The translations under genes were made by a program, and so were the position numbers. The notes beneath the pieces are model-generated. The model saw nothing but the letters and a program-made list of their open reading frames with translations. It searched no databases and had not been told where the DNA came from. Shown here piece after piece: positions 22,781 to 43,265 of a stretch of DNA of 64,000 nucleotides (position 1 is the stretch's first letter; every line of letters starts with the position of its first letter). The DNA comes from Spartinivicinus ruber. GTDB lineage: Bacteria > Pseudomonadota > Gammaproteobacteria > Pseudomonadales > Zooshikellaceae. Location of the stretch: the NCBI RefSeq assembly GCF_011009015.1, contig NZ_CP048878.1:4184354-4248353 (forward strand). Direction: 5' to 3'.

Positions 22781-22889
22781 ATATAGGATAACAGGGTATT
22801 CTTTCACCGCTCTTGAAGTACCATCCTTGGCACATCAAGAGCTAAAACGACATCCATGTCGTAGCTACAAAATACCCTATTCCCCATAT
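22781..22889 (+). repeat. family A structured repeat, copy 3
   Basis: A 109-bp copy nearly identical to copy 2, with the closing stem intact except for one base. The small hairpin reads ACGACAT/ATGTCGT, where copy 5 reads AAGGCAT/ATGCCTT, so two pairs differ in a compensatory way. It lies downstream of the collagen gene at 22924 and upstream of the one at 22679. Confidence 0.8.
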
Positions 22890-22923
22890 TTACTGACTTG
22901 GGCGGTAACTAGACATTTAATTC

Positions 22924-24372
22924 CTAATCAATAATGGTTAGGCGACAGTGAGCGTCATACCCATCACTCCATGAAAGTAACCAAAAATTATTATCCTTAT
23001 CTGACACATCTTTCCAGTTGATATGTTGTCCATCGGTAAAATAGCAAGCCCATGGACTCATAATATGCTGAGTTACATTGTTATTATTTTCTCCTTGCAC
23101 ATCGCCTGCTGATGCTCTCCATTTTTTTGTTTCGGCATGGTAATAAAATAATGATTCGCGAGATGCTATCCGATGACTATTTGGACCATTCTCTCCATCC
23201 CACCCTTCAAGCCCTATTCTAAGCTTACACCCATCCTCATCTGCACATAAATCAATAATATCTTGCTCAGGAATCGCTAAAGAAGTGCCACGTTGTTCTC
23301 TTGATACAAAATAATGTTTACGATCTACCGAAGAGCCTGCTTCACCTTTATCCCCTTTTTCACCTTTTGGTCCCTGGTCACCTTTATCTCCTTTGTCGCC
23401 TTTAGGCCCTGTTTCGCCCTGTGGTCCTTGCTCACCTTGTTCTCCCTTTTCACCTTTAAAACCTTGCGGGCCTCTTGGGCCTATAGGACCAGTGTCGCCT
23501 TTATTACCCTTTTCACCTGGTAAACCGCGCTCACCTATTTCACCTTTATTTCCCTTATCCCCTTTTAATCCAGGCGAGCCTTGGTCACCTTTTTCCCCTT
23601 TAGGGCCTTGATAAAAAACCGGTACACAATTAAAACCATTTTCAGCAATACATTTGGCTTCAATCGAGCTAATGGCACGGGTAAACAGTCGTACTTCATC
23701 CAGCTGGCCATTGAGTGGCGTTTGTAATTGGTTTAACTCACTATTACCGATAATTAACGGACCATTAATGTTAACAATGCTATTTAAGCCTAAGTTAACC
23801 GTATTCGCTGCTTGTCCATTTAACGACAGATACATATTTTTCGCATCACCACCAAATGAAAATACCAAGTGTTGCCATTGGCCTTTACTATTATTTAACG
23901 GTAATGATACCAAGCCACCTTTTTCACCCGTTGCCCCAACAAAGGCCACATTGACTTGGTTTTTATCATCCAAATAAATCGCAAATTGCGCCTGGCTATT
24001 GGTATCAGCTTTTTCGATTAATGTTTGCTCGATATTTAATTGATCAATTTTAAACCACAATGCAACAGAAAAAGGCTGGGTAATATCCAAATCAGCAGCT
24101 GGCACCACCAATGGATTTTCTGGTTCTACCACTAACGCCGTACCTTTTTTACCATTAACAAACTGACCACCCGATACATCACCGGCCTGACGCTGATAAA
24201 AATAACCATGGTGTTGCGCCGCTGAAAAATCAGCCGCGCCTAATTGATGTTTACCGCCATCAAAGGACCAATAGCCGTATTCAGAAGAGGTAGGAGTTGG
24301 ATTAGCTAATGCATTACCCGCAATAGCCATCGCCAACAGGAGAGGGGCTTTTTTAAATTGTTTTGATTTCAT
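22924..24372 (-). CDS. secreted LamG plus collagen-repeat protein, type 2 tail
   Basis: A 482-residue tandem paralog of the previous gene. It has a signal peptide ([19 protein letters not shown]), LamG domain ([19 protein letters not shown]), about 32 Gly-X-Y triplets and the same type 2 tail ([34 protein letters not shown]). Its signal peptide and leader match the 19010 paralog rather than its tandem neighbour, so these genes seem to be mosaics. Its promoter region holds a family C insertion. Confidence 0.85.
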
Positions 24373-24739: not shown

Positions 24740-25014
24740 TTAACTGCGTTTTTCTCGCAACCAACGATCCACCACCCACTGACGACAGTTATTCACATGG
24801 AAGTAATGTATACAAGTTTTGCAGGACGCAAAAACTTGCGCTCAAATGACTGGCCTGTCAATTGATCTTCATAACCTAAAAAAGCCCGTCGTACACAACG
24901 AGTAATGCAATGACCAATTTTTCTGGAAAAAAATTGGAACATCTTTAGCTGGCCCGTAGGGTATAGTGCAAGGATGCACAATATAAAGAAAGGCGTCGCA
25001 TTCAACGACACCTG
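24740..25014 (-). pseudogene. decayed Y1 (IS200/REP-type) transposase, N-terminal remnant
   Basis: Three pieces of a typical REP-associated/IS200-like transposase N-terminus can be read in order: QVSLNATPF, HCITRCVRRAF then GYEDQLTGQSFE, and RQWVVDRWLREKRS. They are separated by two stretches of foreign sequence, each containing a palindrome (24914-24937 and 24813-24838). The second interruption also shifts the frame. The His-rich catalytic core and the C-terminus are absent, so no function is expected. The 72-codon open frame here is therefore not an intact gene. The family call rests on motif memory. Confidence 0.65.
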
Positions 25015-25129: not shown

Positions 25130-25543
25130 TTAATTATTTTCCTTTATATAAAATTTACTTTCAGAAAATTCATCTCCATGCACAACAAATATTTCCTTAC
25201 CAAACAAGTTTTTATAAGGAAATATATCTAACTCAATTATAACACCAGCGTTGTCTAAATATTTATTTAAGACAACCCCTACATCCTCATGATTTCCTTC
25301 CTTCGTCAGATAACTTCTCCATAAGCCTATATTGTAACTCACAAGAGTTTTATGTTTATCATCAAAAGCAAATTGTTCATATTTACCATTTTGATAAACA
25401 CATATCTTATCTATAGGCTTAACAGTATTCTGCACATAACAGCCTTTAAAGTCTTTCAAAGGGGTGCTATACCCATGAAATAAAAATAGACAACCCCCTA
25501 AAAAAGCAAATAAGCAACATGTAACGACTGTTTTATTCTTCAT
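25130..25543 (-). CDS. membrane-anchored or lipid-modified small protein, candidate immunity protein
   Basis: A protein of 137 residues beginning MKNKTVVTCCLFAFLGGC, a hydrophobic N-terminus with a lipobox-like LGGC. It is either a lipoprotein or a membrane-anchored periplasmic protein. It is followed by a soluble domain of about 110 residues with no recognised family. The ATG at 25543 has AAGGAG nine bases upstream, inside the end of the giant RHS gene, and starts two bases after that gene's TGA. A GTG at 25549 overlapping the stop is an alternative. Position and coupling fit an immunity partner for the RHS C-terminal domain; this is inference. Unrelated lipoprotein roles are possible. Confidence 0.7.
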   Translation of the reverse strand: MKNKTVVTCCLFAFLGGCLFLFHGYSTPLKDFKGCYVQNTVKPIDKICVYQNGKYEQFAFDDKHKTLVSYNIGLWRSYLTKEGNHEDVGVVLNKYLDNAGVIIELDIFPYKNLFGKEIFVVHGDEFSESKFYIKENN

Positions 25544-25545
25544 AA

Positions 25546-28500
25546 TCACTTACTCCTTAAAGGCCTTGACCACTCTATTGTCATATATAAATCACCTTCA
25601 TTAGGCCCAAGTATTTCCGGATTTAGCCAGTCCCAACCTGTTTCACTACGTTGTCGCCCGAAGGTTAATGAGTTCAAAGACATATTATTTTTTGCACGAA
25701 ATACCACTTCATTTCCATGTCTTATTGCTTCACCTTTCCATGTACCTACGACTTGTTCCGCTGAATTTAGGTTAAATGCTCTCCAAAACCATGTATATTT
25801 ATAATCTACCTTATTCATTTCACCTAAGTCAGGTGGATTGCCAGCAAACTTATTATAAAATCTGTCTTCAAGTAATTTAGCGCCATCTCCTTGACTAAAG
25901 ATTTTAGACACTCTACTTTCAGGACTAAAATGTAGATTACCTCCATAACCCAGTGCCCAATGTTTTACCACATCAATAGGGTGCATATTTTCAACAGAGT
26001 TATAGTCTTCAACAATATCTCCCCGATTAGTCACTGTTGCAAACTCAAGAAGATCTTCTTTTTTGACTGCTGCAACTAATTTATTTTGGTGCTTTTCATT
26101 ACCACCGAAAAATGCAAGCCCCTCTTTTCCATGTTCTATTCCTATTTCTTTATCTACACTGAGTGCCAACTCAAAATTATTAACTATTTCTATTGTTCTT
26201 GTATGAAAGTCTTTTGGTGACTCATTATATAATGGCTTAATATATCCTTTCACTTGGTTTATTTGTTCCGCTTTTGATTCACCCACTGGATCTGGTTCAA
26301 AATTAGCCAGATACGCTTGGTAGTTTTGATCATTACGTTCCTGCCAGTTAGTTCCTACGCCTATTTTCCTAAAGCCACTACGGGCATACAGGCCTGCAGC
26401 ACTTTTTGCTTGAGAAGATTGACTTACATCATAATCAGGGTATGCTTCACCTACCGAGTTTAAAAACGCTTTTTTCTGGTTATAAGAGTACCCTTCAAGC
26501 CTTCCATTTAGTTGCTCATCAATTTTAATTTCTTCTACAATTTGTTGAGTATAATCTTCAGCAAGTCCTTGATTAATAACATCTGGGTTGACTTGCTTAA
26601 GCTCCTCTTTCGGATCATAGCTAAACAGCTTTTCTAAATCAGTTTGTATAATTTCTGACTCAACACCATATGCCTTCTTACTCTCGCTGCCATGCTGATT
26701 TTCCTTAGCACTTTCATTTACGATAGAACTAGATTGAGGACGGTAGTAAGCTTTTATTGAATGTCCAATTGAATTACCCGCAAAGCTATTAACATCAAAC
26801 TTACGTTTATAAATTGCTGCCTCAACACCTTCACTAATTAAAGTATCGGTCGTTGTATCTACAGCCAAATTATCCGTCCTATAATCAGCATTATTTAATC
26901 CTCTGCTGATTCCTGCAGAGATAGAAGCAACAGCGGTAGAGCGCCAATCAAACTTTTTCTGCAAACCTGACTGCATGGAAAGTGCTTGTGTACCAATATT
27001 ACCTACAGCAGCCCTAGCAGCAGCTTGCCAACTATTGACTTGTTTTCCTGCCCCAAAAACAGTCTTTCCTAAACCACTTGCTGTACTGAAATACTCACCA
27101 ACAGCACCACCTACAACAGTAGAAATGCCTGTTTGAAGACCCGCTTTCGCTGCTTGCTTAAATGAGATTTTATCTTGTACACCAAGCGCAACTCCAGCTG
27201 CTTGGCCTGCTATTGAGCCAACTGTTCCAGCCACAAATGCAGCCCCAACCGAAGCCCAACTTAGGGTTGATAAAGTTGCTAGCCCTGCTGACATGGTTGC
27301 TGCAAAACCAGAGGCAACCAAGCCACCTGCTGCCGCAGTTGCGGATGTTCCTGCAGCCATAGCACCAAACGCAGCCCCCGCAGCCCCTGCCGTAAATATG
27401 GTCGCAACAATCGCCACCACTATAATAATCACCTGAGCCGCCCCACAGCCCCCACCTTTCGGTGCCGGCGGTGGTGGCACATCCGGCAATGTCGGACTCA
27501 CGTCGCCTATCGCTACGCCGGCATCATAGGGCCTAAACGTACTGCTGTTGTTGTGGATGTTGGTGACTTTATTCGGCACGGTTAATACGGTGCCGGGTTT
27601 TAGGTTGGCAATTTGTTCAGGTTTTAACCCATTGGCATCGGCTAATAAGAACCACAGGCTGCTGTCACCCCATAAAGCCAAGGCGATACTTTGTAAACTG
27701 TCGCCTTTTTTAATGGTGTATACCCCTGGGCTTTGTGCTGGGTAGTTTTCACCAATAGCCCGGTAGTTGGCATCAAAGTCAGCACTAAAGACTGGGGTGA
27801 CTTTATCGGGGCGGCGCATTAAGCCTTGGTTATACGCCAGCTGGGTAGCGTAATCGGTGTAAGTGGGGCCATCATCCCCCACATCGCCGATACCCACTCC
27901 GTTCATATAATAAAACTGATGGGTTCTTAAATATTGGGTGCCATCCCGCTGATGACCTTCTTCAGTACGGGTTAAGACTTGGCCTTTGTGGTTATTAATA
28001 TACTTCAATATTCGTGCGTTATATTCATCCTCTACATAATTGATATGGCCATTTTGGTCATACCCAAAGGTTGAGGTACCCGGCTGCCAAACCCAACGTA
28101 ACTCCTGGCCAGTTTTGGCTTGGCTACGAATGGTTTTGCGTTTGTATTCGTCCCATAACTCATAGCTGTAATGGGTTTTAATCACCGGGTCATCACCAAA
28201 GGTGGCGGTGACTTTCAGGTTACCTACCTTATCGTATTCAAACGTGGTGCCTTTACTGCTACTTTCGCCTTTTTCGGTCGTGGTGGTTTCTTTGATGGCT
28301 CGGTTATTAGCGTCATACTCCTTGCTGACTTCCCGATACAAATTACCCTGTTGATCATACTCCCCGTATAACGTGGTATTACCCACTACATCATTGACCC
28401 GACGGGCACGGAGCACGCCATCAATATGGGTGGTCGTCAATTTACCATTTTCGTCATAGGCGTACACTTCCGTGTTATTTTTACTGGTTGCCTGAACACG

Positions 28501-31500
28501 TTGCCCTGCAGCGTTATAGCTAATTTGATAACCATGATCACCCGCTACAATTTGGCCGTCTTTCAACGTGCCCATAGTGGTGGTAAACCGATTCATGGCA
28601 TCATAGGTATACCAAAACGCTTGTACATGCTTTTTCAATCCAGGATCGGTTTCTGCTGCTACGGGGTCTTGGTCTACTTGAATATATTCACTGCGCACGT
28701 TACGCCGATTACCCATGGTATCGTATTCATAGGTAATGGTGTATTTCGGGTCATCGATTTTAGTAATACGATTGAGTGCGTCATACTCTACATTCGAGCG
28801 TTGGGTATAAACCCTTTTTTGCCCCTGATCTTCATCAATGTTGTAATAGGCCTCAAATATTAAATTACCGTTTTTATCGTATTTAAACTCGGAATAATTA
28901 TTTGCACCTAAATCATCAATATTTTTGATATAGCCATTGTTGTAATAGCCGTAATAAATTTCCTGATCATGCTCCAATTCATTTTCTAAGTTGGTGTCGC
29001 CCTTTTGCCACAGCAATTTCCCAGCCGAGTTGTATTTGTACCAGAATTTCCGTCCCCCTAAATCCTCGTGATAATGAATCCGGTCAAATACGTCTTTATG
29101 GTCTATTAAGGTTTTTTCTTCGGCATTGGTATTTGTGACAACCCAGCCGCCAATCTCTCCAATCGAGCCGTTATATTCATACTGATAGGTTGTGGTAAAC
29201 CCCGCATAATCGGTATGGGACAGCACCCGACCACTACTGTCGTATTGATAATGCTCGGTTTTACCTAAGGCATTGGTGTGACTAACTTGTTGCCCCGCGG
29301 CATCATAGCTATAGGTGTCATTATTACCACCTGCCCGATTGACCTGGGTAATATTGCCCACTTGGTCATAACCATAAGTGGTTACCAGGTCCAACTCGTT
29401 AGTCTGTTTAACTTTGTGGCCAAACTCGTCGTATTGTTGCTGGACTTGCCCCCCATCCGCATGCAGTTCTCCTGTTATATGGCCTGCGGCCCACTGCTGC
29501 TCATTAGTATTGCCATTAGCATCAGTGGTCGACAGTTGTTGGCCAAATAAGTCGTAGCCATAACGGGTAGTGGGCGTCACCTGCTGTTTATTACCTTGCT
29601 CATCGGTGGCACTCACTTCCGGGGCTTGCTTAAGCACCATCTTGCCCAGCTGGTTATAGGTAAAGTGTGTAACCTTCTCATTACCATCCACTTCTTTAAT
29701 AATTTCACCAAAGGCGTTATAAGCTTGCTGACGGTGAACGGCATGGCTGACCAGTGCTTGCTTACCAATTAAATAATCCAGGCTATTGCGATGGTAGGGT
29801 GGCCGCCCGGTATTTCGATGGGTAATGCTGCCTTTTTTAATTCCCTGATGGCGATCCAACTCATGGTGGCCTGTGGCGGTATAAGTACCAGACTCAAAAC
29901 GTTTGCCTTTAAAGCTATAATCGCCTCGCAACCAGTCTAATAATTCCCACTCACCGGCCGTATTTTGTTTATAGACATTAATGGTGTAGGTAAAGACACG
30001 CCCTTCAGCACTTTGCAATTTGGTATTCGGTGTTAACTGAATGGATTGCTGGGAAGCATCAACCTCTGTTGAACCTTTTGCTCCTGCAAAACCGGCATCC
30101 CAGTCAAAGCGTAATTTACCCGTGTAATTACCCAGGTTTTTCCAGCTTAAATAAATTGTGTCTAACTGCTGCTCACTGGGCTTGGCTTCCGCATTTGTTT
30201 CAGATGCCGGCGTGGCCGCCGTTTGGGTCATATTTAATTGCAGATCAAAGGTTTCACCGCTTTGGGCATTTTCATTGGTTTTAAAAATCCCCTCAGCCCG
30301 GTTCATCACGTTACCCTGAGCATTCACCGCCTCATAAAAATACTCATAGGTTTGGTTTTCTTTTAACCCAGGGGCATTGGACATATCCACGGCCCAATGG
30401 CCACCATTACGTCGTACCCGTGACCCCGTCACCTGAAAGCTGTATTTTTCTGGCTGATAATTCGCTTCGTTATATTCCCGGCTGGCATAGCCTGGGTCTT
30501 GCGCCACCCGATAATAAAACCGTAGTCGGGTAGTTTCTTTGGGTTGTTGTTCTAAATTAATAATTTGCGGTGCATAATGCACTTGCCCGTCTTCGTAACG
30601 CGTGCCACTTGGACCAGAACCTGTCCAGTGATACCGCCCTTTCGCATTGGTTAATAATGGCGTGTATTTACCGTTACCATTATCTTTATACAGATTAAAA
30701 CGATAAATCATCCCCTGGCTATAAATATTGCTCCTCGTCGTTTTATAACTGCGCGAGCCTCGGGTACCAAAATTAACGCTGCCGGTACTTTGATTAGCGG
30801 TAAATTGCGAAACACCTCGTGACTTCCAAGTAAACCCTGAGTCCCAGTCCAGTTTAAATTTCGTGGGCGCGTTATTAACATCCTTCCAATTAAACTGTAC
30901 GGAACGAATATCATAATGCACTTGCGGCTTATTGCTTCGGCGTGGCCTGGCTTTTAGTGAAAACCGCATTTGGAAGGCTTCACCACCGGACATGCTGGCT
31001 TTACCAAAGGTATACGGGGTGGCCTCAACTACCTGTTCAGCTGGGGTAGTGCTATCCGTCCCAGTCAGGAACGACATTTCCGGCTGAATCACATCCGTAA
31101 GTTGGTTACGAGCATCGTAACGGCTTAAAGTGATGTGTAACTTACTCGCATCCAGGGTGCGAATTTCACTGAGGGTAATGGTTGATAAATCAATTGCCTG
31201 GGATTGGATTTCTTGGCTGACATTACCATTTTCATCGTATAAATAAAGGCGTGGCGCACCATTTTTTTCATTGGTTTTGACCAGGTTACCGGCTTGGTCA
31301 TATTCATAATATTCCTGAATTTGACCATTAATCCCTTTGCCGGTGATTTGACCATGGGCGTTATGCCACACGTGTTTGATGGCACCGATCCCTTCATCTC
31401 GCCACACTTCCCGGTTATAACTGTCGTAGGCAAGCCGCATATCCACCGCTTTAGTGGTACCGTCCGCTTGCAATAAATGCTGGCGTTTACGCACCACATT

Positions 31501-34500
31501 GCCGTTGCCATCGTAAAATAATTCGGTGGCACTGCCATTAGCATCAATTTGTTTGATAGCGTTACCCGCTTTGTCGTATATCAGTCGGGTAATTAAATCC
31601 CCAGCACTTAACTCAAATTGGGTTTGTTTGCCATCCGCTTGTTCTTGTACCACTAAAGCTTGTTGACCTTGGGCATTGTAGTAGGTGCTAGTAGTCTGGC
31701 GCACCGTTTCACCACTGGCAGCTGTATAGCCAGTGCTTTGCTCCAACACTTTTCGATTTAAGGCATCGTAGCCAATATCAATCCGCTCTGCTGGGCCAGT
31801 TGCTTCGCCTGCGGTGGTTTCGCCTTTGCGAATAATCGCCACATTATTGCCGTTGGCATCATACAACAGCTGGGTAATGGCATCGCCGGTGTGGGTTTGC
31901 CATTCGTTGCCCACTTTGACTTGGTGCTCCACATTCACCTGGCGGGTTTCGATGAGGCGGCCTAAAGCGTCGTATTGTTGGCGAGTAATTCGATTATTGG
32001 CGGCGTTTTTATCCAAGCTATCCAGCAGCGGTTGTGGATCAGACTGTTCCGATAAATTCGCTAATTGTTCAGCCGTCAGGGATTGAGCAAATTTAATTTC
32101 TTCTATTTGCTGACTGGCTGGGTTATAGCTTTTAGCCGTGGCGTAACCTAAAGGGTCAACCGTTAAAATGACATTGCCAGTGGCATCGTAATAATTAAAG
32201 CTGGCGTTACCCCGGCCATCGATCACTTTGATCACATTACCATTGGCATCATACACCTGGTGTTGGGCTTTACGACCATAGAAATAGCCTTTATCAATAT
32301 CGTGCATTAACACCGTGCGGCTGTATTGAGCCACTTCCCGGTTATTGGCATCGACTGCAAAGGTGGTTTCTCGGTATTGGCCTTGGCCCACCGGTTGACT
32401 GTTCGGGTAAACAGTGCCCACTGAGGTGTCGTATACCCGCTCGGTTAATTTATTACCAGCGGCATCATAGCTAAATTCGGTTAAATAGCCTTCCCCATCC
32501 ACTTTGGCGATCACTAAATTACGGGCATTGTAGTAAAAGGTACTGGTATTACCGTTGGCATCGGTTTCGGTAATCACATTGCCGACCGCATCGTAACGGC
32601 GCTGTACTTCAGGTATGGTATTTTTACCGCCACCCGATTGACCATCTTCCACCCAATGCTGAGCTTTTCGCTGGGTAATTAATCGGCCTTGAGGGTCGTA
32701 ATCCATTTCAGTGATTAAAGGGGTGTTGCTGCCTACCCCAACCGTTGTACGAACCTTGTTGTCTAAGTAATCGTAATCGTACTGGGTCACTACCGATTGC
32801 ATCGCCACTGCACCGGTTTCGGCATTCGTCACCACTCGGACCTGCGGCGAGTATTGTTTAATTAACCGCCCTTGGGCATCGTATTCAAACTGGGTGGTAT
32901 TGCCGTTGCGATCGGTATGGCTAAGCTTATTGCCTTGCGCATCGTAGCTAAAGGTTTCGGTAACGCCCGCTTCGGTGACAGCGGTAATTTGGCCAAAGCC
33001 ATTAATTTGATTTTGTTTACTGAGCACCCCTGTTTGACTATTTAATTGGGTTAATAAGTCGTTGAGTGCGGTATTTTCATCATAGCTACCAATACTACCA
33101 GATAGCGGCTGCTGATAACGCAGGGTTTCGACCACTTGGCCGAAGGCGTTATAACGAGTTTCGGTGGCATAACCAGAAGGACCGATTTGTAAGCGTAAAC
33201 GATTATTGGCATCGTAATAAAAATACCCTTCCGCCCCTTTTGGGTCAGTGGCTTTAATGATATTGCCAAAGGCATCATATTCCGTTCGGGTCACATACCC
33301 TAACGCATCGGTTTCTGAGGTTTTATGCCCCGCCGCATCAAAGGTTTGGGTGCTGGTATAGGCGGCTAATAATGTACGAATCTCGTCGTCAGTTAACTCA
33401 TGAGCCCGTTTGGTGGCACCGGGAACGTCTTCACCCGCCTCATTTTGTACGGTATGTGTCATCCCCAGTTTGGCTCGCTCGGCTAATGCCCAATCGCTGT
33501 CTTGGCTGATCAGCGCCACACCACGAGCATCAATAATGGTGGTTAACCGGCCTAAACTGTCGTATTGATAGCGGGTTTCTGCAGCCGCCTCAGTCCCTGC
33601 TGCTTTGATTTCTGCGATTTTTTGGTTGCGGTCGTCATAGCGGTATTCAGTGTGGCGTTCTGACTGTTTACCCGCCGCTTCAATTTTACTGGTTAAATTA
33701 CCAAAGGCATCGTACACATAATGAGTTTCATGGCCATTGCCATCCGCACTCGGCGCTGTTTCGGCAATTAACCGGTTTAATCCGTCATAACGGAATCGTA
33801 CAATCCGATCGGCATACACCAACGAGCGGGACTGATTCGCGCCTTTGCTTATTGGCAATAAACCGCTGTAACGGTTTTCGAAAACCTTATTACCAAACGC
33901 ATCGTAATCAAACACAGTTAAATAACCGTTGTCGGCATCTACCTGTTTTAATTCACGGACTAATTGGCCTTTACCGTCATAGTGGAACAGGGTCAACCAT
34001 TCACCCGTTTCAGTTTGCCGATGAATCGCAGTACGTTGACCTAGCGCGTCATACTCATAATATTCCACCCGGATTTTATGCTGCTGTATGGCGGTTTTTA
34101 TTTCTTCAACCGTCATATCCGCTTTTAATACCGATGCGGCACCGGTTAATAAACCAGTTTTATTCCCTGCTGCGTCGTATTGGTAAACAGTGGATTGGTC
34201 GTTATCAGCCGCCACTAAAAGAGAGTCAACTTCTGTTGTATTCAGTGATGCAGTGGTTTGGGATAACGCTATAGGCTTCGCATAACGTACACTCCGAATT
34301 AATTGACCTACCCCATCATATTCGTGCTGAGTGACATGGCCTAATGGATCTATTTCAAAGGTGGCACGCCCCGCCTGATCATATACTGTACGGGATACTA
34401 CATAATCCAACTGTCCTAGTTTACGTGCAGTTTGGAAAGACGATGGTTTGCTTTGATAAGCAATAATCCCTTGATAACGGCGAGTTTCTATTACACGACC

Positions 34501-37500
34501 TAAGCCGTCATACAGTTTTTCTGTTACATGCCCTTGGGCATCAATGGTATAAATTTCACGCCCCGCTTTATCATATACATGCTGCTGAAACGCTGCCGTT
34601 TCGTTATGTTCAGCAATATGAGCTGCAATGACTTCTGCTGTAATAAACTCAGGGCCTGTGCCTCCTAAGTGAGCCGGTAAATTAATAGGTGTTTTATATT
34701 GCAAACTGGCAGTAATACGACTGTTGATATCATACTGAAATTCACTGATATAACCTGCCGCATCAATCTGGTATTGCTTGCGCCCTAAGCTGTCATAAAT
34801 AATCTGGCTAGTTTGTTTTGCAACATCATCATTCGCCGATAAAAATTGGCTTACTTTCTCACTTAATTCTGCAAGATTTAAGTTCGCTAATTGTTCAGGT
34901 TGAATATTTAAATCATCTTCAAAATGCAGACTATATTGAGTTGTGCCTGCTAACCGGCCATTTTCATCATAATGATTAACTGCTACATAACCTGCCGCAT
35001 TAATCGTAACCACAGGCTGGTTTAAACCATTATAAAACTGGTAACTGCTAATGGGCTGTTGGCTTTCTAATTGTTCAATTAGTTGGTCAAATTGCTGACC
35101 GACAAATAAATGCTCTACATTGGATACAGGTGTCGTGTATTTATTTTCCTGAATGATATTGCCATTGGCATCGTACTGAAAACCGACTGCATGGCCAACA
35201 CTATTAAACTGATAAGCAACCCGTCCATCCTTGTCATACAAGGTATAAGACACATGGTTCTTTTCTGTCAGTTGTGGTTTAGGCCGAGCAGAGACACGCC
35301 CTTCCACCGCCACTCGTGAATCGCCACTGTGGTTAATCAGGTCGGCTGCTAGCCCTTCAATAGTAATTGGCTTTGCTAACTGACGCTCGATGATTTTACG
35401 GCCAGCATTGTCATATTCAATGACACTAACGCCACCATTACCATCCACCATGTAGCGCAATTGATTATTGCCATTGTAGGCATAGTAGGTACTGTCGCCA
35501 TTAGCATCCGTTTCCACAATGACATTATTGCGCTGATCATATTGATAGTCGGTACGTAATGCTAATCCTTCGGGATCAATAATCTGTGCAGTTTTGCGTC
35601 CTAAACTGTCGTATTCATAATGAACGGTAGATTCAACGCCCGTCTCCAAGCTGCCTTTTTCCACCGCCACTTGGTTGCCTAGTTCATCGTAACGGTAACG
35701 GGTAAACAGCTGTACTCCTCTAAATTTACTACCACTGATAATTTCAGTGACCCGGCCATTAGCATCATAAGTTGTGCGAGTGGAAGTTAAACGATCAGGC
35801 CCTGATTGACTGATCACCCGGCCCTGGGCATCCAGGGTATAGCGTGTGGTTAATTTAAAACCTGTTGGGTCTACTACCTCTTGGATTTTACGACCTTCGG
35901 CATCATAACTAAACTGTCGGGTAATCCCTTGCTTATCAGTGGTTTCTGTTAACCAACCCAACTGGTTAAACTGTTTTTCACTGGTTTGCAGTAAATTGCC
36001 TTGGGCATCAAAAAATTCGGTTTTAGTTAAACGACCTGCCGCATCATACTGATACTGTTTACTATTACCGTTAGGGTCTTGAACTTTTAACGCCTCGCCA
36101 TGTTGATTAGACCAGGTTTTCACCGTGTGACCACCCGGAGAGGTCACCGATAATGTCCGTTGTTGGTCATCGTATTGATACTGAGTGACTTGCCCCAGTG
36201 GATCGGTGACCTGCACTTTGCGGCCTAACGCATCATAGCGAAACTGGGTTTTGTTACCACTATCAGTAACTTCCGCAACTACCCGATTTAATCGGTCATA
36301 GGCCGTCTGGGCAACATTACCATCAGCAAAAGTCTTAGTAGTGAGGCGGCCAAAAGCATCATAAGCATTGTGGCTAATTTGCTGATCAGCCCCTTCCCCA
36401 GCCACACTTCGAATCAACTGACCGCGCTTATCATAATAGGTACGGGTAGTGGTGTATGCTTCGTTGGCCGCTTGAATGCTTTTGGTGAATTCGGATAACT
36501 CACCAAAACTGTTGTAGGCCAAACGACTTATGCCGCCTTCTCCGTCAACAGTGAGAGTTTTTTGCCCCAAACGGTTAAAGGCTTGCTGGGTGGTAATATC
36601 TTCCGCGCTGGTCTGAATATCCTTCAGTTGCCGACTATTATCCCACCCTCCGGTTAACCCTTCCGTGCTAATTCGAGTTTGATAACGGATGGTTTTAATC
36701 TTTTCACCAAAGCCGTTATAGCGGTGTTCCGTCACTTCACCCAAACTATTAATGGTATAACGCAGTTGATGGGAACGATCATAATAAAAGTAGCTGGTTG
36801 GCTGCTGGCCATTTTCAGCTTGTGGCTGAATCACTTTTATTTTTAAGCCCGCATCGTTATACACAAACTGATTACTGTGGGTTTGCCAAATTTGCGCTTT
36901 GGCTTGGTCGGTAGTAGCTGTTTTTAGTAATTGGCTACCTTCGGCAGTTAACTCTGCAATAACCCGACCTTTTTGATCAAACCGACGCTGCTGTACAACC
37001 GCTTTAGAGCGAGCTTGATCTTCACCCGTCACAACGGTGGTTAAATTACTTAGCGGATCATATTGGTATTGGGTGACGACCCCAAACCGATCTATAGACT
37101 GGATTTTACGGCCTGCTTGATCATAACGGAATTGCTCCACCCACTTGGTTTGTTGTGGATCAGTGGCTAATTGACGCAGCTCTACTAACGATTGTTCTGT
37201 AGCTGGGCTATTTAAAGCAGCTTCCGCTAAAGGCTGATTATTAAATACCGCTAAAGGCTCATTTTTAAGTACTGCTAAGGGCTCTTTTTTAAGTACCGCT
37301 AAAGGCTTTTGATAACGGATGGTTTGGCTTAATCGTCCTAAGCTGTCAAAGATCTGTTCGGTTAAATAACCTTCCGCATCGATAGTCGCCACCTGTCGTC
37401 CAAAGCTGTCGTATATAAAAAAGGTTCGCTGGTCTTGATCACTAGCAGCGGGACGAAGATGCTCCAAACTATGGCTAAATTGTTGACTTACCACATAAGG

Positions 37501-40500
37501 AGTTTTAGTGGCATAACGAATTTCTGAAACTTTTTGCCCGGCTTCGTTATAGATAATTTCAGTTAAATAACCCTCGGCATCAATAGAGCCAATTAACTGT
37601 TGGTCATCATTATAAAAATGGTGATTAAAACGGCCCGCTATTTTATCGCCATTTTCGTCACTGAATTTTAATAACACTTGTTTTTTCGAGTAGCCATCAA
37701 CTGTTATTCGCGCATGGCCTTCCCGCTCAATGACCGGGTCGCCATCTTGAACAATTTTAATAGTCAGATCATTACGGCCAGCAATTAAATCCGTTAATGC
37801 CAACTCAATGGCTTGTTTATCTGCCGATAACTGGCTAGCTAAATCGACAAATTCATACTGGCTAGGCTCCTGCTGAGCCAATCGATAGGCAACGGTTGTT
37901 CCCGGTTTGGTGACAGCTAATGGTAACTGATCCAGGGGAATGGTCAGGCGGGTATGATAATTAATCTCTTGCTGATTACCGACTTGATAAACAAATGACT
38001 CTTCCGCTCGGGTGCCATCATAATAATATTTGGTCATGGATATACGATAAGTGCCGCTATCCAACTCACGACCTAAGGATAAATTCACTTCCCCTTGGTA
38101 ATGACGATACCCCCTTGGGTAGGTCAACGCATGGCTGACTTCTTCGCTTTGGCTCCCTACTGAGTCGACATAAGTAGAGATATAATCGATTTTTTTCGCT
38201 TCTTCGGCTGAAATAATACCGGTTAGCGATGCTCCCTCTACGGTTTGACTATTAACCGCTGCTTGAGAAAACTCAATATTTTGTGTGGAATCTCTGGAGG
38301 TAGGCACCAATAAAAAGGTGCCAGATTTTTCGGTCAGCTGTTCATTGTCAATATTGCTGGCATCCTGCTGATGCACTAAGCGGACTTCATAAGGTAAATT
38401 CGGTACTACTTCTTCAAGGGTGGCCTGATAAAAACCATCGACAATCTCTACAGCAACTGTCTTAAAAGGCGCCGTCGCCGTTAAACCAAACGGTGGGCGA
38501 TCTAAGGGGCGGTATTCAATCTGATGTTTAGTGCCAGGCTGATTGGCCAGCGCATCAACCGGCCAACGAATCGTTTGGCTAATAAACTGGTGACGACCTT
38601 TTTCAATCACAAAGGTTGGTTTGGCAATCCGTTCACCATTTTGCAAATATACCACTACACTGGCACGATAACGGCCACCCGTTAAATGGCTAGGTAGAAT
38701 TAACTCGCCTTGATAATTATCAAATTGAGCTGGGTCGGTTGTTACCCGTTTGGATTGACGAGTTTTCAAATCAATAAAGTCTACGACTATCTTGTCAACC
38801 GATGCTTGCTCTTCATCCGTTAAATAATTTACTAAAATAGTACCGGTAATATCAGCCTTATTTTGTTGTTTAATCACAGTGACATGGTTAGGAATGCTAT
38901 CCACCATTTGATAGCTGCTTGAGCCACTCAGCTGCAAAGTAGCATAGCTTTTGACGGTTTCTGTGGTCTGCTCGGAAGCACCCAGTTGATAGGCCGAGGC
39001 TTTATAAGTCGTTTCCCAAGGTGTAGTCGACGAGTTCCGTACAACAATCGGCGTGTAGTCACCCAAATTGGCCTGCACTTCAGCAACGGTTAATCGCTGA
39101 CCTAGTAGGCTAGTCGCTAATGGGGCCTCGTATTGATGTTCACCCACCACTTTACCATGGGCATTATAAACCCACTCTTTGACTTGGCCCTGGCCATTAA
39201 TCGCAAATCGCTTTTGACCTGCGGTGTCGTATACCCAGTAACTATGGCGATCGGCGGTAGCAGACGACGCAGGCCGTAGTGTATCCAACACCAGTTTTTG
39301 TTCATTAATTTGCCCACCCATCACTAAGCCTCGGGTGTTTACCTGCTGGTGGTACTGGATTTGTTCAATTAACTGATTATTGGCATCGTAACGATACTCT
39401 ACCATTGCCCCAAGGCTATCTATGGTGGCCACTTTACGATTACGGGTATCATACAGGGTGTAACTGCGTCCACCATTGGCATCCTGCATGGCAATTTGCC
39501 GACCCGCTTGATCATAAAAATAACGGACTTTACCCAAAGTCTGGGTGTCATCAGTGGCTTGTTCGGTACGGCTTAATAATCGACCGGCTGCATCAAATAA
39601 TTCAGTTTTAACTAACCCGCTAGCGAAGGTGGTCGTCACTAAATGGTTTTGGTCATCATAACGATAAACAGTGGTTAAACCAGCTTGATTGGTTTTACTC
39701 AACACCCGCCCTAAGCCATCATAGCTTAAGGTTTCTGTTGCCCCTTCAGCATTTGCCGTGCTTAATAACCGACCAAAGTGGTCGTAGTTAAAGACAGTTT
39801 CAATCGATTGTGCTGCACCGTTTTTATCCGTACCCTGTTTAACGACTTTATTAATTAAACCGCGACTGTCGTATTCAGTCAGGGTTTGAGTAAGTTTCGT
39901 GGCTTGACCATTGGCTAACTGTGCATTAACCCAATCAGACACCGCCGTTAAGGTGATCTCACTTTCTGTCTCTTCAGGTGAAGCAATCGGATATACAACA
40001 CCAGCTAACTGATAAGTTTCAATTAACTGGCCCTGGCTGTCATACTGAAATGCAGAAACTCGTCCCTCCGCCGATAAGGTAAATTGACGTAATCCTTGTG
40101 AATTATAAAGATGACGGGTAAACGCTGCATTTTCCGGTATGGCCGTGAATTCCGCAGGCGTTGTAGGTGCTCGCTGTAACTGCCAGGTGGCCTCGGCAAT
40201 TAACTGTTGCTGGGTATTATATTGATAGTGGCTGACCCGGTTTTCACTGTCGATTTCATAGGTAAGATTACCCATACTGTCGTATTGACGGCTAATTCGG
40301 TCACCCAACCCATTGGTAATTTGGGTAATATTGTCTTGCTCGTCATACTGATAAGCAATCGTATCCCGCTGGCCATCCACTGCGGGGGTAAATACTTGGG
40401 TAATACGGCCCTGGTCGTCAAACTGATAACTGGTTTGATGGCCCAAGGTATTAGTGACATGGGTAATTTGTTGGGCAACATCGTATTGATAGTCTACACC

Positions 40501-41391
40501 CACACCCGTAGCATCACGATAACTGGCTACACGGTAAGTGCCGTTCACCTGTTCATAGGTAAAAGTTAAAGCCGTACCGTCACTGTTATGAATGGTTTTG
40601 ATGCGCTGGCTGTTACCATCGTAACGGTATTGGGTTTGATACGTTTGGCCATCAGTAATACTGTTATCTGCTGGCGTTAAATCCACGATCACATGACTTA
40701 AGCGGTTTTGCTCATCGTATTGATAGCGCGACACCACCTGGCTTATTTGTTGACCTGCTTGATTGGGATAAGCCACTTGTACTTCAGTTAACAGGTTGTC
40801 AGTGTAAATCAATGAAGTGACTTGACCCGAAGCATCCGTAATTGTACTTAACTTGTTGTTTAGGTAACTGAGCTGAGTTTGATTACCTGCTTTATCCGTT
40901 AACTGAATTAATTGCCCTTGAGCATTATAGGTTTCAGTGACACGACTAGTGCCTTCTGTCCAGGTCCAGGTTTGGCTAGTCTGGTCATATTGAAAGTAAT
41001 CATGGGCACCCTCACCATCGGTCGTAATATAGGCTTGCAGCTTTTCATCATAGCGATAAACACTATCACTCCCATCACCATTTTGCTTAATTAAACTACT
41101 ACCTGGTTCATTCGGTGGCTCAGGTAATTGACTGATAAACCGGTTTAAGCCTAACAGCCAAGGGTTATGACGAGGATCATTGGTTTGCCCCTGGCTGTTA
41201 TAGGTGTGCAGCAAAGTTGTATCTAACCCTACACTGGCTACTGCATCGGTATGATGACGCACCACCAGGTTACCGGTTTGATGGTTAATAAAAACCCGGT
41301 TATTTCCTTCACCCAGCTGGCTATTGCCCCCTAGTCCAGCTAATACATTGTTATGTAAACCTAAATCTTGTCCAGCAATCACTGCAACCAT
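25546..41391 (-). CDS. giant YD-repeat (RHS-like) protein with LysM and unknown C-terminal domain
   Basis: A single open frame of 5281 residues. Most of it is YD/RHS repeats (patterns such as YDALGR, YQYD, G-x-x-T), which in this superfamily wrap into a hollow shell around a cargo. Two non-YD inserts interrupt them: residues about 787-1240, with two related beta-type units, and about 3440-3880, with two units sharing WDSGF/WDAGF. Near the C-terminus lie a LysM domain (about 4556-4606, GDSLQSIALALWG) and a Gly/Ala-rich hydrophobic stretch (about 4640-4740). A variable domain of about 400 residues (about 4877-5281) was not recognised. No signal peptide and no canonical RHS-core DPxGL motif were seen. 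Likely a secreted or surface toxin or adhesin; the export route is unknown and no VgrG, PAAR or Tc partner is in the window. Confidence 0.9.
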   Translation of the reverse strand: MVAVIAGQDLGLHNNVLAGLGGNSQLGEGNNRVFINHQTGNLVVRHHTDAVASVGLDTTLLHTYNSQGQTNDPRHNPWLLGLNRFISQLPEPPNEPGSSLIKQNGDGSDSVYRYDEKLQAYITTDGEGAHDYFQYDQTSQTWTWTEGTSRVTETYNAQGQLIQLTDKAGNQTQLSYLNNKLSTITDASGQVTSLIYTDNLLTEVQVAYPNQAGQQISQVVSRYQYDEQNRLSHVIVDLTPADNSITDGQTYQTQYRYDGNSQRIKTIHNSDGTALTFTYEQVNGTYRVASYRDATGVGVDYQYDVAQQITHVTNTLGHQTSYQFDDQGRITQVFTPAVDGQRDTIAYQYDEQDNITQITNGLGDRISRQYDSMGNLTYEIDSENRVSHYQYNTQQQLIAEATWQLQRAPTTPAEFTAIPENAAFTRHLYNSQGLRQFTLSAEGRVSAFQYDSQGQLIETYQLAGVVYPIASPEETESEITLTAVSDWVNAQLANGQATKLTQTLTEYDSRGLINKVVKQGTDKNGAAQSIETVFNYDHFGRLLSTANAEGATETLSYDGLGRVLSKTNQAGLTTVYRYDDQNHLVTTTFASGLVKTELFDAAGRLLSRTEQATDDTQTLGKVRYFYDQAGRQIAMQDANGGRSYTLYDTRNRKVATIDSLGAMVEYRYDANNQLIEQIQYHQQVNTRGLVMGGQINEQKLVLDTLRPASSATADRHSYWVYDTAGQKRFAINGQGQVKEWVYNAHGKVVGEHQYEAPLATSLLGQRLTVAEVQANLGDYTPIVVRNSSTTPWETTYKASAYQLGASEQTTETVKSYATLQLSGSSSYQMVDSIPNHVTVIKQQNKADITGTILVNYLTDEEQASVDKIVVDFIDLKTRQSKRVTTDPAQFDNYQGELILPSHLTGGRYRASVVVYLQNGERIAKPTFVIEKGRHQFISQTIRWPVDALANQPGTKHQIEYRPLDRPPFGLTATAPFKTVAVEIVDGFYQATLEEVVPNLPYEVRLVHQQDASNIDNEQLTEKSGTFLLVPTSRDSTQNIEFSQAAVNSQTVEGASLTGIISAEEAKKIDYISTYVDSVGSQSEEVSHALTYPRGYRHYQGEVNLSLGRELDSGTYRISMTKYYYDGTRAEESFVYQVGNQQEINYHTRLTIPLDQLPLAVTKPGTTVAYRLAQQEPSQYEFVDLASQLSADKQAIELALTDLIAGRNDLTIKIVQDGDPVIEREGHARITVDGYSKKQVLLKFSDENGDKIAGRFNHHFYNDDQQLIGSIDAEGYLTEIIYNEAGQKVSEIRYATKTPYVVSQQFSHSLEHLRPAASDQDQRTFFIYDSFGRQVATIDAEGYLTEQIFDSLGRLSQTIRYQKPLAVLKKEPLAVLKNEPLAVFNNQPLAEAALNSPATEQSLVELRQLATDPQQTKWVEQFRYDQAGRKIQSIDRFGVVTQYQYDPLSNLTTVVTGEDQARSKAVVQQRRFDQKGRVIAELTAEGSQLLKTATTDQAKAQIWQTHSNQFVYNDAGLKIKVIQPQAENGQQPTSYFYYDRSHQLRYTINSLGEVTEHRYNGFGEKIKTIRYQTRISTEGLTGGWDNSRQLKDIQTSAEDITTQQAFNRLGQKTLTVDGEGGISRLAYNSFGELSEFTKSIQAANEAYTTTRTYYDKRGQLIRSVAGEGADQQISHNAYDAFGRLTTKTFADGNVAQTAYDRLNRVVAEVTDSGNKTQFRYDALGRKVQVTDPLGQVTQYQYDDQQRTLSVTSPGGHTVKTWSNQHGEALKVQDPNGNSKQYQYDAAGRLTKTEFFDAQGNLLQTSEKQFNQLGWLTETTDKQGITRQFSYDAEGRKIQEVVDPTGFKLTTRYTLDAQGRVISQSGPDRLTSTRTTYDANGRVTEIISGSKFRGVQLFTRYRYDELGNQVAVEKGSLETGVESTVHYEYDSLGRKTAQIIDPEGLALRTDYQYDQRNNVIVETDANGDSTYYAYNGNNQLRYMVDGNGGVSVIEYDNAGRKIIERQLAKPITIEGLAADLINHSGDSRVAVEGRVSARPKPQLTEKNHVSYTLYDKDGRVAYQFNSVGHAVGFQYDANGNIIQENKYTTPVSNVEHLFVGQQFDQLIEQLESQQPISSYQFYNGLNQPVVTINAAGYVAVNHYDENGRLAGTTQYSLHFEDDLNIQPEQLANLNLAELSEKVSQFLSANDDVAKQTSQIIYDSLGRKQYQIDAAGYISEFQYDINSRITASLQYKTPINLPAHLGGTGPEFITAEVIAAHIAEHNETAAFQQHVYDKAGREIYTIDAQGHVTEKLYDGLGRVIETRRYQGIIAYQSKPSSFQTARKLGQLDYVVSRTVYDQAGRATFEIDPLGHVTQHEYDGVGQLIRSVRYAKPIALSQTTASLNTTEVDSLLVAADNDQSTVYQYDAAGNKTGLLTGAASVLKADMTVEEIKTAIQQHKIRVEYYEYDALGQRTAIHRQTETGEWLTLFHYDGKGQLVRELKQVDADNGYLTVFDYDAFGNKVFENRYSGLLPISKGANQSRSLVYADRIVRFRYDGLNRLIAETAPSADGNGHETHYVYDAFGNLTSKIEAAGKQSERHTEYRYDDRNQKIAEIKAAGTEAAAETRYQYDSLGRLTTIIDARGVALISQDSDWALAERAKLGMTHTVQNEAGEDVPGATKRAHELTDDEIRTLLAAYTSTQTFDAAGHKTSETDALGYVTRTEYDAFGNIIKATDPKGAEGYFYYDANNRLRLQIGPSGYATETRYNAFGQVVETLRYQQPLSGSIGSYDENTALNDLLTQLNSQTGVLSKQNQINGFGQITAVTEAGVTETFSYDAQGNKLSHTDRNGNTTQFEYDAQGRLIKQYSPQVRVVTNAETGAVAMQSVVTQYDYDYLDNKVRTTVGVGSNTPLITEMDYDPQGRLITQRKAQHWVEDGQSGGGKNTIPEVQRRYDAVGNVITETDANGNTSTFYYNARNLVIAKVDGEGYLTEFSYDAAGNKLTERVYDTSVGTVYPNSQPVGQGQYRETTFAVDANNREVAQYSRTVLMHDIDKGYFYGRKAQHQVYDANGNVIKVIDGRGNASFNYYDATGNVILTVDPLGYATAKSYNPASQQIEEIKFAQSLTAEQLANLSEQSDPQPLLDSLDKNAANNRITRQQYDALGRLIETRQVNVEHQVKVGNEWQTHTGDAITQLLYDANGNNVAIIRKGETTAGEATGPAERIDIGYDALNRKVLEQSTGYTAASGETVRQTTSTYYNAQGQQALVVQEQADGKQTQFELSAGDLITRLIYDKAGNAIKQIDANGSATELFYDGNGNVVRKRQHLLQADGTTKAVDMRLAYDSYNREVWRDEGIGAIKHVWHNAHGQITGKGINGQIQEYYEYDQAGNLVKTNEKNGAPRLYLYDENGNVSQEIQSQAIDLSTITLSEIRTLDASKLHITLSRYDARNQLTDVIQPEMSFLTGTDSTTPAEQVVEATPYTFGKASMSGGEAFQMRFSLKARPRRSNKPQVHYDIRSVQFNWKDVNNAPTKFKLDWDSGFTWKSRGVSQFTANQSTGSVNFGTRGSRSYKTTRSNIYSQGMIYRFNLYKDNGNGKYTPLLTNAKGRYHWTGSGPSGTRYEDGQVHYAPQIINLEQQPKETTRLRFYYRVAQDPGYASREYNEANYQPEKYSFQVTGSRVRRNGGHWAVDMSNAPGLKENQTYEYFYEAVNAQGNVMNRAEGIFKTNENAQSGETFDLQLNMTQTAATPASETNAEAKPSEQQLDTIYLSWKNLGNYTGKLRFDWDAGFAGAKGSTEVDASQQSIQLTPNTKLQSAEGRVFTYTINVYKQNTAGEWELLDWLRGDYSFKGKRFESGTYTATGHHELDRHQGIKKGSITHRNTGRPPYHRNSLDYLIGKQALVSHAVHRQQAYNAFGEIIKEVDGNEKVTHFTYNQLGKMVLKQAPEVSATDEQGNKQQVTPTTRYGYDLFGQQLSTTDANGNTNEQQWAAGHITGELHADGGQVQQQYDEFGHKVKQTNELDLVTTYGYDQVGNITQVNRAGGNNDTYSYDAAGQQVSHTNALGKTEHYQYDSSGRVLSHTDYAGFTTTYQYEYNGSIGEIGGWVVTNTNAEEKTLIDHKDVFDRIHYHEDLGGRKFWYKYNSAGKLLWQKGDTNLENELEHDQEIYYGYYNNGYIKNIDDLGANNYSEFKYDKNGNLIFEAYYNIDEDQGQKRVYTQRSNVEYDALNRITKIDDPKYTITYEYDTMGNRRNVRSEYIQVDQDPVAAETDPGLKKHVQAFWYTYDAMNRFTTTMGTLKDGQIVAGDHGYQISYNAAGQRVQATSKNNTEVYAYDENGKLTTTHIDGVLRARRVNDVVGNTTLYGEYDQQGNLYREVSKEYDANNRAIKETTTTEKGESSSKGTTFEYDKVGNLKVTATFGDDPVIKTHYSYELWDEYKRKTIRSQAKTGQELRWVWQPGTSTFGYDQNGHINYVEDEYNARILKYINNHKGQVLTRTEEGHQRDGTQYLRTHQFYYMNGVGIGDVGDDGPTYTDYATQLAYNQGLMRRPDKVTPVFSADFDANYRAIGENYPAQSPGVYTIKKGDSLQSIALALWGDSSLWFLLADANGLKPEQIANLKPGTVLTVPNKVTNIHNNSSTFRPYDAGVAIGDVSPTLPDVPPPPAPKGGGCGAAQVIIIVVAIVATIFTAGAAGAAFGAMAAGTSATAAAGGLVASGFAATMSAGLATLSTLSWASVGAAFVAGTVGSIAGQAAGVALGVQDKISFKQAAKAGLQTGISTVVGGAVGEYFSTASGLGKTVFGAGKQVNSWQAAARAAVGNIGTQALSMQSGLQKKFDWRSTAVASISAGISRGLNNADYRTDNLAVDTTTDTLISEGVEAAIYKRKFDVNSFAGNSIGHSIKAYYRPQSSSIVNESAKENQHGSESKKAYGVESEIIQTDLEKLFSYDPKEELKQVNPDVINQGLAEDYTQQIVEEIKIDEQLNGRLEGYSYNQKKAFLNSVGEAYPDYDVSQSSQAKSAAGLYARSGFRKIGVGTNWQERNDQNYQAYLANFEPDPVGESKAEQINQVKGYIKPLYNESPKDFHTRTIEIVNNFELALSVDKEIGIEHGKEGLAFFGGNEKHQNKLVAAVKKEDLLEFATVTNRGDIVEDYNSVENMHPIDVVKHWALGYGGNLHFSPESRVSKIFSQGDGAKLLEDRFYNKFAGNPPDLGEMNKVDYKYTWFWRAFNLNSAEQVVGTWKGEAIRHGNEVVFRAKNNMSLNSLTFGRQRSETGWDWLNPEILGPNEGDLYMTIEWSRPLRSK
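37224..37308 (-). repeat. 24-bp tandem repeat inside the RHS gene
   Basis: Three and a half copies of a 24-base unit encode PLAVLKKE, PLAVLKNE, PLAVFNNQ and PLAE in tandem. Other YD units have a single PL at this place (for example QKPL). This looks like a recent slippage expansion that keeps the frame. Confidence 0.8.
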
Positions 41392-41918: not shown

Positions 41919-43184
41919 TTAATTCTTTATACAGGAATACATTATCATATCCCATGGTTCTTGATTATAGTGCAGCCCTGTTGTAACTGGTGTCCAACCA
42001 CTTTCACAGCGACAACTCCACCCTGATCCTTCACGTACAGCAATAGCTGGTGGAATAACCTGATATTTTCCTTTATTGGCGAAATACTGCCAATAACCAA
42101 CTCGGCAATACCCCGCCAAACTCCCTGTTGGTAATTTAGAATAATGCGTTGCTACTGGTCCCATTGGTCCTTGTGGCCCTGCTGGTCCACGATCGCCTTT
42201 ATCACCTTTTGGTCCCTGCGGTCCGACTTCGCCTTGTGGCCCTTGGTCACCTTTATCTCCCTTTTCACCTGTAAATCCTTGCGGGCCTCTTGGGCCTATA
42301 GGACCAGTGTCGCCTTTATCACCCTTTTCACCTTGTAACCCTTGGTCGCCTTTATCTCCTTTATCTCCCTTGTCTCCTTTTAACCCTGGAGGCCCCTGAT
42401 CTCCTTTATCACCTTTAGGGCCTTGGTAATAAAACGGTACACAATTAAAGCCTGACTCAGCAATACATTTTGCTTCTATTGAACTAATAGCACGGGTAAA
42501 AATTCGTACTTCATCTAGCTGGCCCACTAGTGGTGTTTGCAACTGATTTAATTCACTATTACCAATAATTAATGAGCCATTCGTTTTTATTACTTCATTT
42601 AACCCTAAGTTCACAGTGTTCATTGCTTGCCCATTTAACGACAAGTGCATGGTTTTTGCGCTGCCATCAAATGAAAAAACTAAGTGTTGCCATTGTTGTT
42701 TAATATTGCCTAGTGGCAATGACACTAAACCTCCTCTACTGCCAGTTGCTCCGACAAATGCTACATTCACTTGATTTTCATCATCAATATAAATTGAAAA
42801 TTGCGCTTGGCTATTAACATCGGCTTTTTCAAAAAGCGTTTGCTCAGTATTTAACTGGTCAATGTTAAACCACAATGCTACTGAAAATGGTTGAGAAATA
42901 TCCAGATCAGCAGCGGGTACCACTAATGGATTGTCTTGTTCTACAACAAGTGCAGTACCTTTTTTTCCATTAACAAATTGGCCACCAGCCATATCACCTA
43001 CTTGGTGCTGATAAAAATAACCATGGTGCTGACTCGCCGAAAAATCCGCAGCCCCCAACTGGTGTTTTCCACCATCAAAAGACCAAAAACCATACTCTGA
43101 AGAAGTGGGGACTGGATTCGCTATTGCTGTAACGGAAAATAAACCAACCGCTAAAGCCAAGGGTTTAATTATATATTTTTTCAT
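41919..43184 (-). CDS. secreted LamG plus collagen-repeat protein, type 1 tail
   Basis: A 421-residue paralog. Signal peptide ([18 protein letters not shown], cut near AIANP), LamG domain ([19 protein letters not shown]), about 30 Gly-X-Y triplets, then the type 1 tail with [14 protein letters not shown] and CRCESGW. It has a different signal peptide and leader from the 19010, 22924 and 43266 genes, although its LamG body is closest to the 22924 gene. The mosaic pattern suggests exchange among paralogs. It is the gene directly upstream of the giant RHS gene on the same strand. Confidence 0.85.
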
Positions 43185-43210
43185 ATTGTTTTTTTACCAC
43201 GTTGATGAGC

Positions 43211-43234
43211 GTGCTGAATATTCCTATTCAGCAC
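43211..43234. repeat. perfect hairpin between collagen genes
   Basis: GTGCTGAATA (43211-43220) and TATTCAGCAC (43225-43234) pair perfectly over 10 bp with a TTCC loop. It lies in the 81-base gap between the 43266 stop and the 41919 start. There is no clear U-tract, so it may be a transcript-processing or partial-termination structure. Confidence 0.5.
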
Positions 43235-43265
43235 TGACAAACTAATAATTGATCAAATCAGAAAA

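Follow-up and report, generated by a model that had tools for sequence, protein, structure and literature searches.

The 64,000-nucleotide window analyzed here (Spartinivicinus ruber, contig NZ_CP048878.1, from a 6.69-Mb genome in 4 contigs) carries on its minus strand a giant gene encoding a 5281-residue YD/RHS-repeat protein, followed directly by a small gene encoding a 137-residue protein (Table 1). We consider it probable that this locus is a polymorphic toxin/immunity pair built on an RHS platform variant that bears LysM, in which the C-terminal tip of the giant acts in the periplasm and the small protein is its membrane-anchored antidote. The giant is modular, relatives share its constant platform while their tips are swapped, known toxin and immunity families occur among those relatives, the adjacent gene is coupled and its product anchored, and a homologue of the candidate toxin lies beside a lipoprotein gene in another genome.

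The giant frame is free of internal stops, and its RHS layout, proposed in a first-pass annotation made from the sequence alone, is borne out by 50 stretches matching RHS_repeat (PF05593, E 1.3e-208; Pfam, protein scanned in two pieces). A LysM domain (PF01476, E 3.7e-6, exceeding the family's own cut-off) follows the repeats, and these two families are the only Pfam matches on the whole protein at E<=1, with no PAAR domain among them. The NCBIfam RHS core model NF041261 reached 278 bits on residues 1-4399, against a cut-off of 2000. No signal peptide-like start is obvious, as hydrophobicity on the Kyte-Doolittle (KD) scale peaks at 1.02 in residues 1-200. Across the entire protein, hydrophobicity over 19 residues is highest in the window at residue 4654 (KD 2.57), right behind a proline/GGGCG linker, and the 15 most hydrophobic windows all lie within 4645-4659, in agreement with the LysM domain and subsequent hydrophobic Gly/Ala-rich stretch read from the sequence at first. 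The reported lack of the DPxGL motif holds at the shell/tip junction; the string itself occurs once, at residue 1939, in the middle of the repeats.

The last 882 residues, used in a scan of genome_contigs with six short peptide patterns that gives a lower bound, recovered at least 33 platform loci in Zooshikella, Lysobacter, Massilia, Duganella, Pelomonas, Methylophilaceae, Aquitalea, Acinetobacter and others. Among the genomes of relatives, 5 of 56 contain a match, S. ruber included. Of two genomes of the same genus, one has no match and the other a 58-residue LysM match only, so the giant gene is not constant within the genus. Two loci that run off their contigs (L039, L052) and three with an interrupted frame (L043, L045, L047) were left out of the counts of tips and neighboring open reading frames (ORFs); the 28 loci kept include fragments whose frame opens shortly ahead of the match (e.g., L041 and L050). 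Together with a second giant of the S. ruber genome they form a set of 29 relatives, several of which come from one genome. Between residues 4420 and 4800, 20-27 of them align with the S. ruber giant, falling to 15 at residue 4820 and 3 at 4920; from 4940 to 5120 only the Zooshikella harenae giant remains, and beyond 5127 none does. An invariant C-terminus, which the first-pass annotation had named as an argument against a toxin, is thus not what the family has.

The shared platform is marked by the block PNKVTNIHNN..TfRPY..G.AiGd..PTlP..PPP..GGCG followed by a hydrophobic helix, which exceeds KD 2.2 in 24 of the 26 proteins (among 30 family members) that cover the LysM region, and DPxGL is absent from the examined C-terminal stretch of 29 of the 30. 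The LysM/hydrophobic module, first regarded as a possible new delivery architecture, is better described as a variant of the RHS platform that is widespread and not confined to this gene. The N-terminus is likewise conserved across the platform, and one of the two giants nearest by N-terminus (57% identity, on a Z. ganghwensis contig) has both a different tip and a different neighbor. The Z. harenae giant has in common with that of S. ruber a pre-toxin module of about 75 residues followed by an unrelated end, which sets the beginning of the toxin proper at about residue 5127 and reduces the C-terminal domain, put at about 400 residues in the first-pass annotation, to the last ~155. In Z. harenae (L023, 2684-3229, plus strand), this module and the unrelated terminal domain stand beside a neighbor that contains a segment of strong hydrophobicity (KD 2.43); the module may be associated with envelope-acting toxins. 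The second LysM giant of S. ruber itself (L059, G000:C1:3772000-3780000) is a 6016-residue frame with a different tip that has no Pfam match, and a 208-residue ORF begins 9 bases past its stop.

The tips of these relatives link the platform to known polymorphic toxins. In a Pfam scan of the 28 loci and the S. ruber tip, up to 11 of the 28 relatives matched known toxin families: Endonuclea_NS_2 in three, the EC869-type contact-dependent inhibition (CDI) toxin in two, and LHH, TNT, Tox-REase-7, Toxin-deaminase, Tle1-like lipase and WHH in one each. NCBIfam gave a single weak match on the 29 tips, XopAI in one member (E 0.0074). Immunity families (CdiI or SUKH) were found in 3 of the 6 relatives' neighbors scanned, where an EC869 tip is paired with CdiI (L033, E 6.4e-43), and an LHH nuclease tip (L030) and a deaminase tip (L032) are each paired with SUKH; the neighbors at L022 and L026 gave weak matches only, under cut-off. 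These toxin tips and immunity neighbors support the polymorphic toxin/immunity arrangement proposed at the outset, and the check suggested with it, that tip and neighbor vary together, came out in part, through agreement of the family names at these three loci.

The tip of the S. ruber giant belongs to none of these families. Its last 155 residues matched no family in Pfam at E<=10 and none in NCBIfam or PADLOC, and PDB sequences returned nothing convincing; matches to Afp5 (E 0.07) and, by profile, to a cyclodipeptide synthase (E 0.014) span part of the domain and look fortuitous. The candidate toxin domain thus appears new to the family libraries searched, which upholds, at the level of sequence families, the earlier suggestion of a new toxin type. 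An order-wide whole-genome search with the tip hit 3 of 390 genomes, namely S. ruber, Z. harenae (pre-toxin module only) and one genome of another family (G877). Further, partly overlapping sets of 369, 398, 24, 48, 274 and 379 genomes, the last of which held no genome known to match, yielded no additional homologue. Plasmid matches to the tip in Paraburkholderia (E 3e-3) and Skermanella (E 0.2) lie on the strand opposite the genes annotated there, are unrelated to toxins and were rejected, and plasmids gave no match to the G877 homologue. Viral contigs scanned with both sequences confirmed no relative, and in phages the tip found nothing and the homologue one match (E 0.1 over 40 residues). 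A model of the candidate toxin domain is mixed alpha/beta with a predicted local distance difference test (pLDDT) score of 64.8, whereas a single-sequence fold of a 242-residue tip reached 35.2.

The G877 homologue is a displaced cassette of 152 residues (36% identity, E 3e-29). The gene behind it starts with an ATG five bases past the stop, or with a GTG overlapping by one base, and encodes a 124-residue lipoprotein with the lipobox LLVGC and a weak DUF3997 match (20 bits vs a cut-off of 25), which the S. ruber small protein does not share. Other lipoprotein genes, as well as a second, broken copy of the cassette, lie in the surrounding array. In G877, across L088 7000-14700 (minus strand), displaced toxin cassettes, one of them broken, repeat a common leader (MTVNEDAPEVVSPIQREE...) and accompany five different small proteins that look lipoprotein-like by eye. 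From the presence of an exported, membrane-attached neighbor beside the same toxin family in two genomes we infer a periplasmic site of action, and this independent lipoprotein partner of the sole homologue lends support to the idea of an immunity protein on the periplasmic side.

In S. ruber, the small gene is coupled to the giant, in line with the initial description: the giant stop TGA (25548-25546) and the ATG at 25543 are 2 bases apart, and an AAGGAG ribosome-binding site (25558-25553) lies within the giant gene. An alternative upstream GTG at 25549 would make the two genes overlap by 4 nt. The small protein opens with about 20 hydrophobic residues (KD 2.05). Of the two forms of attachment proposed at first, signal anchor or lipid modification, the membrane anchor is the likelier because the hydrophobic run extends beyond the Cys of the weak lipobox LGGC. 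G+C content is 45.3% in the shell, 37.4% in the candidate toxin domain and 29.8% across 25130-25549, and the AT-richness of tip and small gene relative to the shell is as expected of an imported cassette. Among five genomes of its family, the small protein occurs in S. ruber alone, and it had no match on plasmids. Similarities to DUF1496 (E 0.9) and NF011929 (E 0.036) fall far under cut-off, and PADLOC PDC-S72 (E 0.0022; a model without curated cut-off) is a short partial match covering 59 of 377 profile positions.

In favor of a toxin/immunity pair, all 30 giants examined (the 28 loci and both of S. ruber) have an ORF of at least 74 residues beginning between -60 and +80 relative to the stop, compared with 973 of 6000 random positions (16%); a small gene is not missing beside most homologs, as the first-pass annotation would have expected of a non-toxin. 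Several points weigh against such a pair. The 74-residue cut was fixed after the ORFs had been inspected, and several of these neighbors (74-87 residues long, or lying in DNA rich in G+C) may have arisen by chance. At L041, the neighbor of the second EC869-type tip has no CdiI match. All-against-all comparison gave four related pairs of tips and zero related pairs of neighbors, and strict co-variation of tip and neighbor is therefore not shown. The candidate toxin family has a single distant homologue in the sets searched, and the 137-residue protein has no detectable kinship with the G877 lipoprotein (E 1.6) despite the 36% identity of their toxins.

Under the toxin/immunity reading, the YD repeats would form a large, presumably hollow shell. 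In solved RHS proteins the YD shell is hollow. The LysM domain would bind peptidoglycan, the hydrophobic Gly/Ala-rich stretch may act on the membrane or in translocation on behalf of many different toxins, and the variable last ~155 residues would act as a toxin on the periplasmic side of a competitor's envelope, with a cell-wall precursor or the membrane itself as the most likely target. The coupled 137-residue protein, seated in the inner membrane and facing the periplasm, would protect the producer. A sharper form of this reading, which we regard as unlikely as it stands, makes the last 155 residues a lipid II hydrolase with a colicin M (ColM) fold and an altered active site that cleaves this peptidoglycan precursor on the outer side of the inner membrane, the anchored protein acting as Cmi does. 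With colicin M and Cmi the locus would share the combination of an envelope toxin and a small immunity protein anchored in the inner membrane on its periplasmic side (in S. ruber, a prediction from sequence), and the folds may bear a weak resemblance. Colicin M differs in its delivery and in its catalytic signature DxYDx5HR, of which degenerate forms are reported too (PMC5821083); the tip has no sequence match to colicin M, which is not among the 10 PDB sequences found by the tip profile at E<=10, and the signature does not appear among the residues conserved between the two tip homologues.

A membrane toxin that is non-enzymatic or directed at phospholipids, for instance a pore former or a lipase, paired with an anchored immunity protein, would also fit the anchored neighbors. 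The two homologues have no conserved His or Cys, which makes Cys/His amidases and His-metal peptidases less likely; R5160, Q5167, E5212, R5246 and D5267 are among the residues they do have in common. Nevertheless, none of the giant's 15 most hydrophobic windows falls in the toxin domain, the model is mixed alpha/beta, and no lipase family matched at E<=10, leaving this reading rather doubtful. If the toxin instead acted in the cytoplasm, the small protein would be anchored for another reason or would not be the immunity protein. Only 5 of the 30 neighbors (those of S. ruber, L023, L028, L029 and L042) reach strong hydrophobicity (KD>2) over a 19-residue segment; the other 25 suit the nuclease and deaminase tips, and the two anchored partners are mutually unrelated. 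This is improbable, however, in that the sole homologue also has an exported lipobox protein directly behind it, and two such cases by chance would be unlikely, although lipoprotein genes abound in that part of the G877 genome. The LysM domain and the LamG/collagen-repeat proteins flanking the locus on the same strand would suit a giant adhesin or matrix protein whose variable ends provide antigenic change, but relatives carry known toxin domains on their tips and, in some cases, known immunity families beside them. No structural adhesin, another argument named in the first-pass annotation, matched the C-terminus in the Pfam, NCBIfam, PADLOC or PDB searches, and we hold an adhesin to be very improbable.

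Compared with RHS/WapA-type Rhs-CT/immunity pairs, the S. ruber locus has the same YD shell, constant body, exchangeable C-terminal toxin and immunity gene directly downstream, as well as a displaced toxin cassette in another genome. It departs from them in its size of about 5000 residues, in a shell/tip junction free of DPxGL, in having neither a PAAR match nor a signal peptide-like start, and in the LysM domain, conserved linker and hydrophobic Gly/Ala-rich stretch placed between shell and tip. LysM is known in polymorphic toxins as an adhesion-type domain, one of several (PMC3482391). Streptococcus suis WapA-CT1 is likewise an Rhs toxin that carries LysM, there credited with anchoring to the cell wall, yet its LysM is in the N-terminal fragment, the protein has a Sec signal and the organism is Gram-positive (PMC12704120), whereas the platform described here holds LysM between shell and toxin and occurs in Gram-negatives. 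We found no description of the LysM/hydrophobic arrangement in open-licence literature on LysM with Rhs/YD toxins or immunity, as far as passages of PMC3482391, PMC12704120, PMC13340143 and PMC6833914 go, nor any account of the locus among the listed papers on Zooshikella and Spartinivicinus. Among the LysM proteins of about 5000 residues in NCBI annotation, Eleftheria terrae WP_301260612.1 (5105 residues), for example, has the same N-terminus, LysM, linker and hydrophobic helix, and its end is overlapped by 4 nt by a 414-bp gene; its tip and neighbor are different, and its NCBI name derives from the LysM domain alone. This giant is plasmid-borne (L094, 5617-21344, plus strand), and its neighbor gave weak zinc-ribbon matches only, under cut-off.

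The S. ruber genome encodes the type VI secretion system (T6SS) sheath protein VipB (PF05943, E 3.9e-136), and a sheath gene is present in 22 of the 29 genomes searched in all. Of the 26 genomes in which the platform occurs whole or in part, 7 lack it, and some of the seven are metagenome-assembled genomes or drafts. If these absences are real, export cannot need a T6SS in every holder; the gene content hints that it may be independent of T6SS in some. Two annotated plasmid examples have no secretion genes annotated within ~36 kb. Tentatively, one may go further and see in the last 155 residues a new envelope-targeting toxin family, possibly with a ColM-like fold and a remade active site, on an undescribed and widespread class of ~5000-residue LysM-YD toxins. 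These would reach the envelope without PAAR and sometimes without a T6SS in the genome, LysM holding the particle at the peptidoglycan while the hydrophobic segment passes the tip on.

Five paralogous LamG (Laminin_G_3) and collagen-repeat proteins are encoded at window positions 19010-24372 and 41919-45458 on the same minus strand as the giant. They are mutually 47-77% identical over 333-492 residues, and the toxin locus lies between the third and the fourth. One of them weakly matches Toxin_R_bind_N (E 3.2e-5), which probably stems from the common lectin-like fold. An IS1595-family transposase (51439-52374, minus strand) lies about 10 kb from the giant gene.

Table 1. Features of the giant gene and of the small gene downstream; positions are those of the window.
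Feature	Position	Strand	Remarks
Giant YD/RHS-repeat polymorphic toxin (probable), 5281 aa	25546..41391	-	Open frame; PF05593 x50
N-terminal region and YD/RHS shell, residues 1-4399	28195..41391	-	N-terminus conserved among relatives; no PAAR match or signal peptide-like start
LysM domain, residues 4558-4606	27574..27720	-	PF01476
Conserved linker PNKVTNIHNN..TFRPY..G.AIGD..PTLP..PPP..GG, residues 4607-4648	27448..27573	-	Consensus of 26 family members including S. ruber
CG, hydrophobic helix (residues 4654-4672) and Gly/Ala-rich stretch to about 4830	26902..27447	-	Final part common to most relatives
Pre-toxin module, residues 5050-5126	26014..26244	-	Elsewhere only in the Z. harenae giant, with a differing terminal domain
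Candidate toxin domain proper, residues 5128-5281 and stop	25546..26010	-	Unrecognised family; homologue in G877
AAGGAG ribosome-binding site of the small gene	25553..25558	-	Nine bases ahead of ATG 25543, inside the giant gene
Candidate immunity protein, 137 aa	25130..25543	-	From sequence: N-terminal membrane anchor, Cys 35 and 48 beyond it
Terminator-like stem-loop 3' of the small gene	24991..25013	-	Consensus match only; 3 such sites vs 0.8 expected in shuffles

If this interpretation is right, it would add an unrecognised family of envelope-acting toxins and immunity proteins. The platform itself, with a LysM domain and hydrophobic linker and without junction DPxGL or PAAR, is a recurring RHS sub-platform of Zooshikella, Lysobacter, Massilia, Duganella, Pelomonas and others that is now hidden under names like “LysM peptidoglycan-binding domain-containing protein.” Should the missing sheath genes prove real, the manner in which proteins of ~5000 residues exit one cell and enter another would become a directly testable question.
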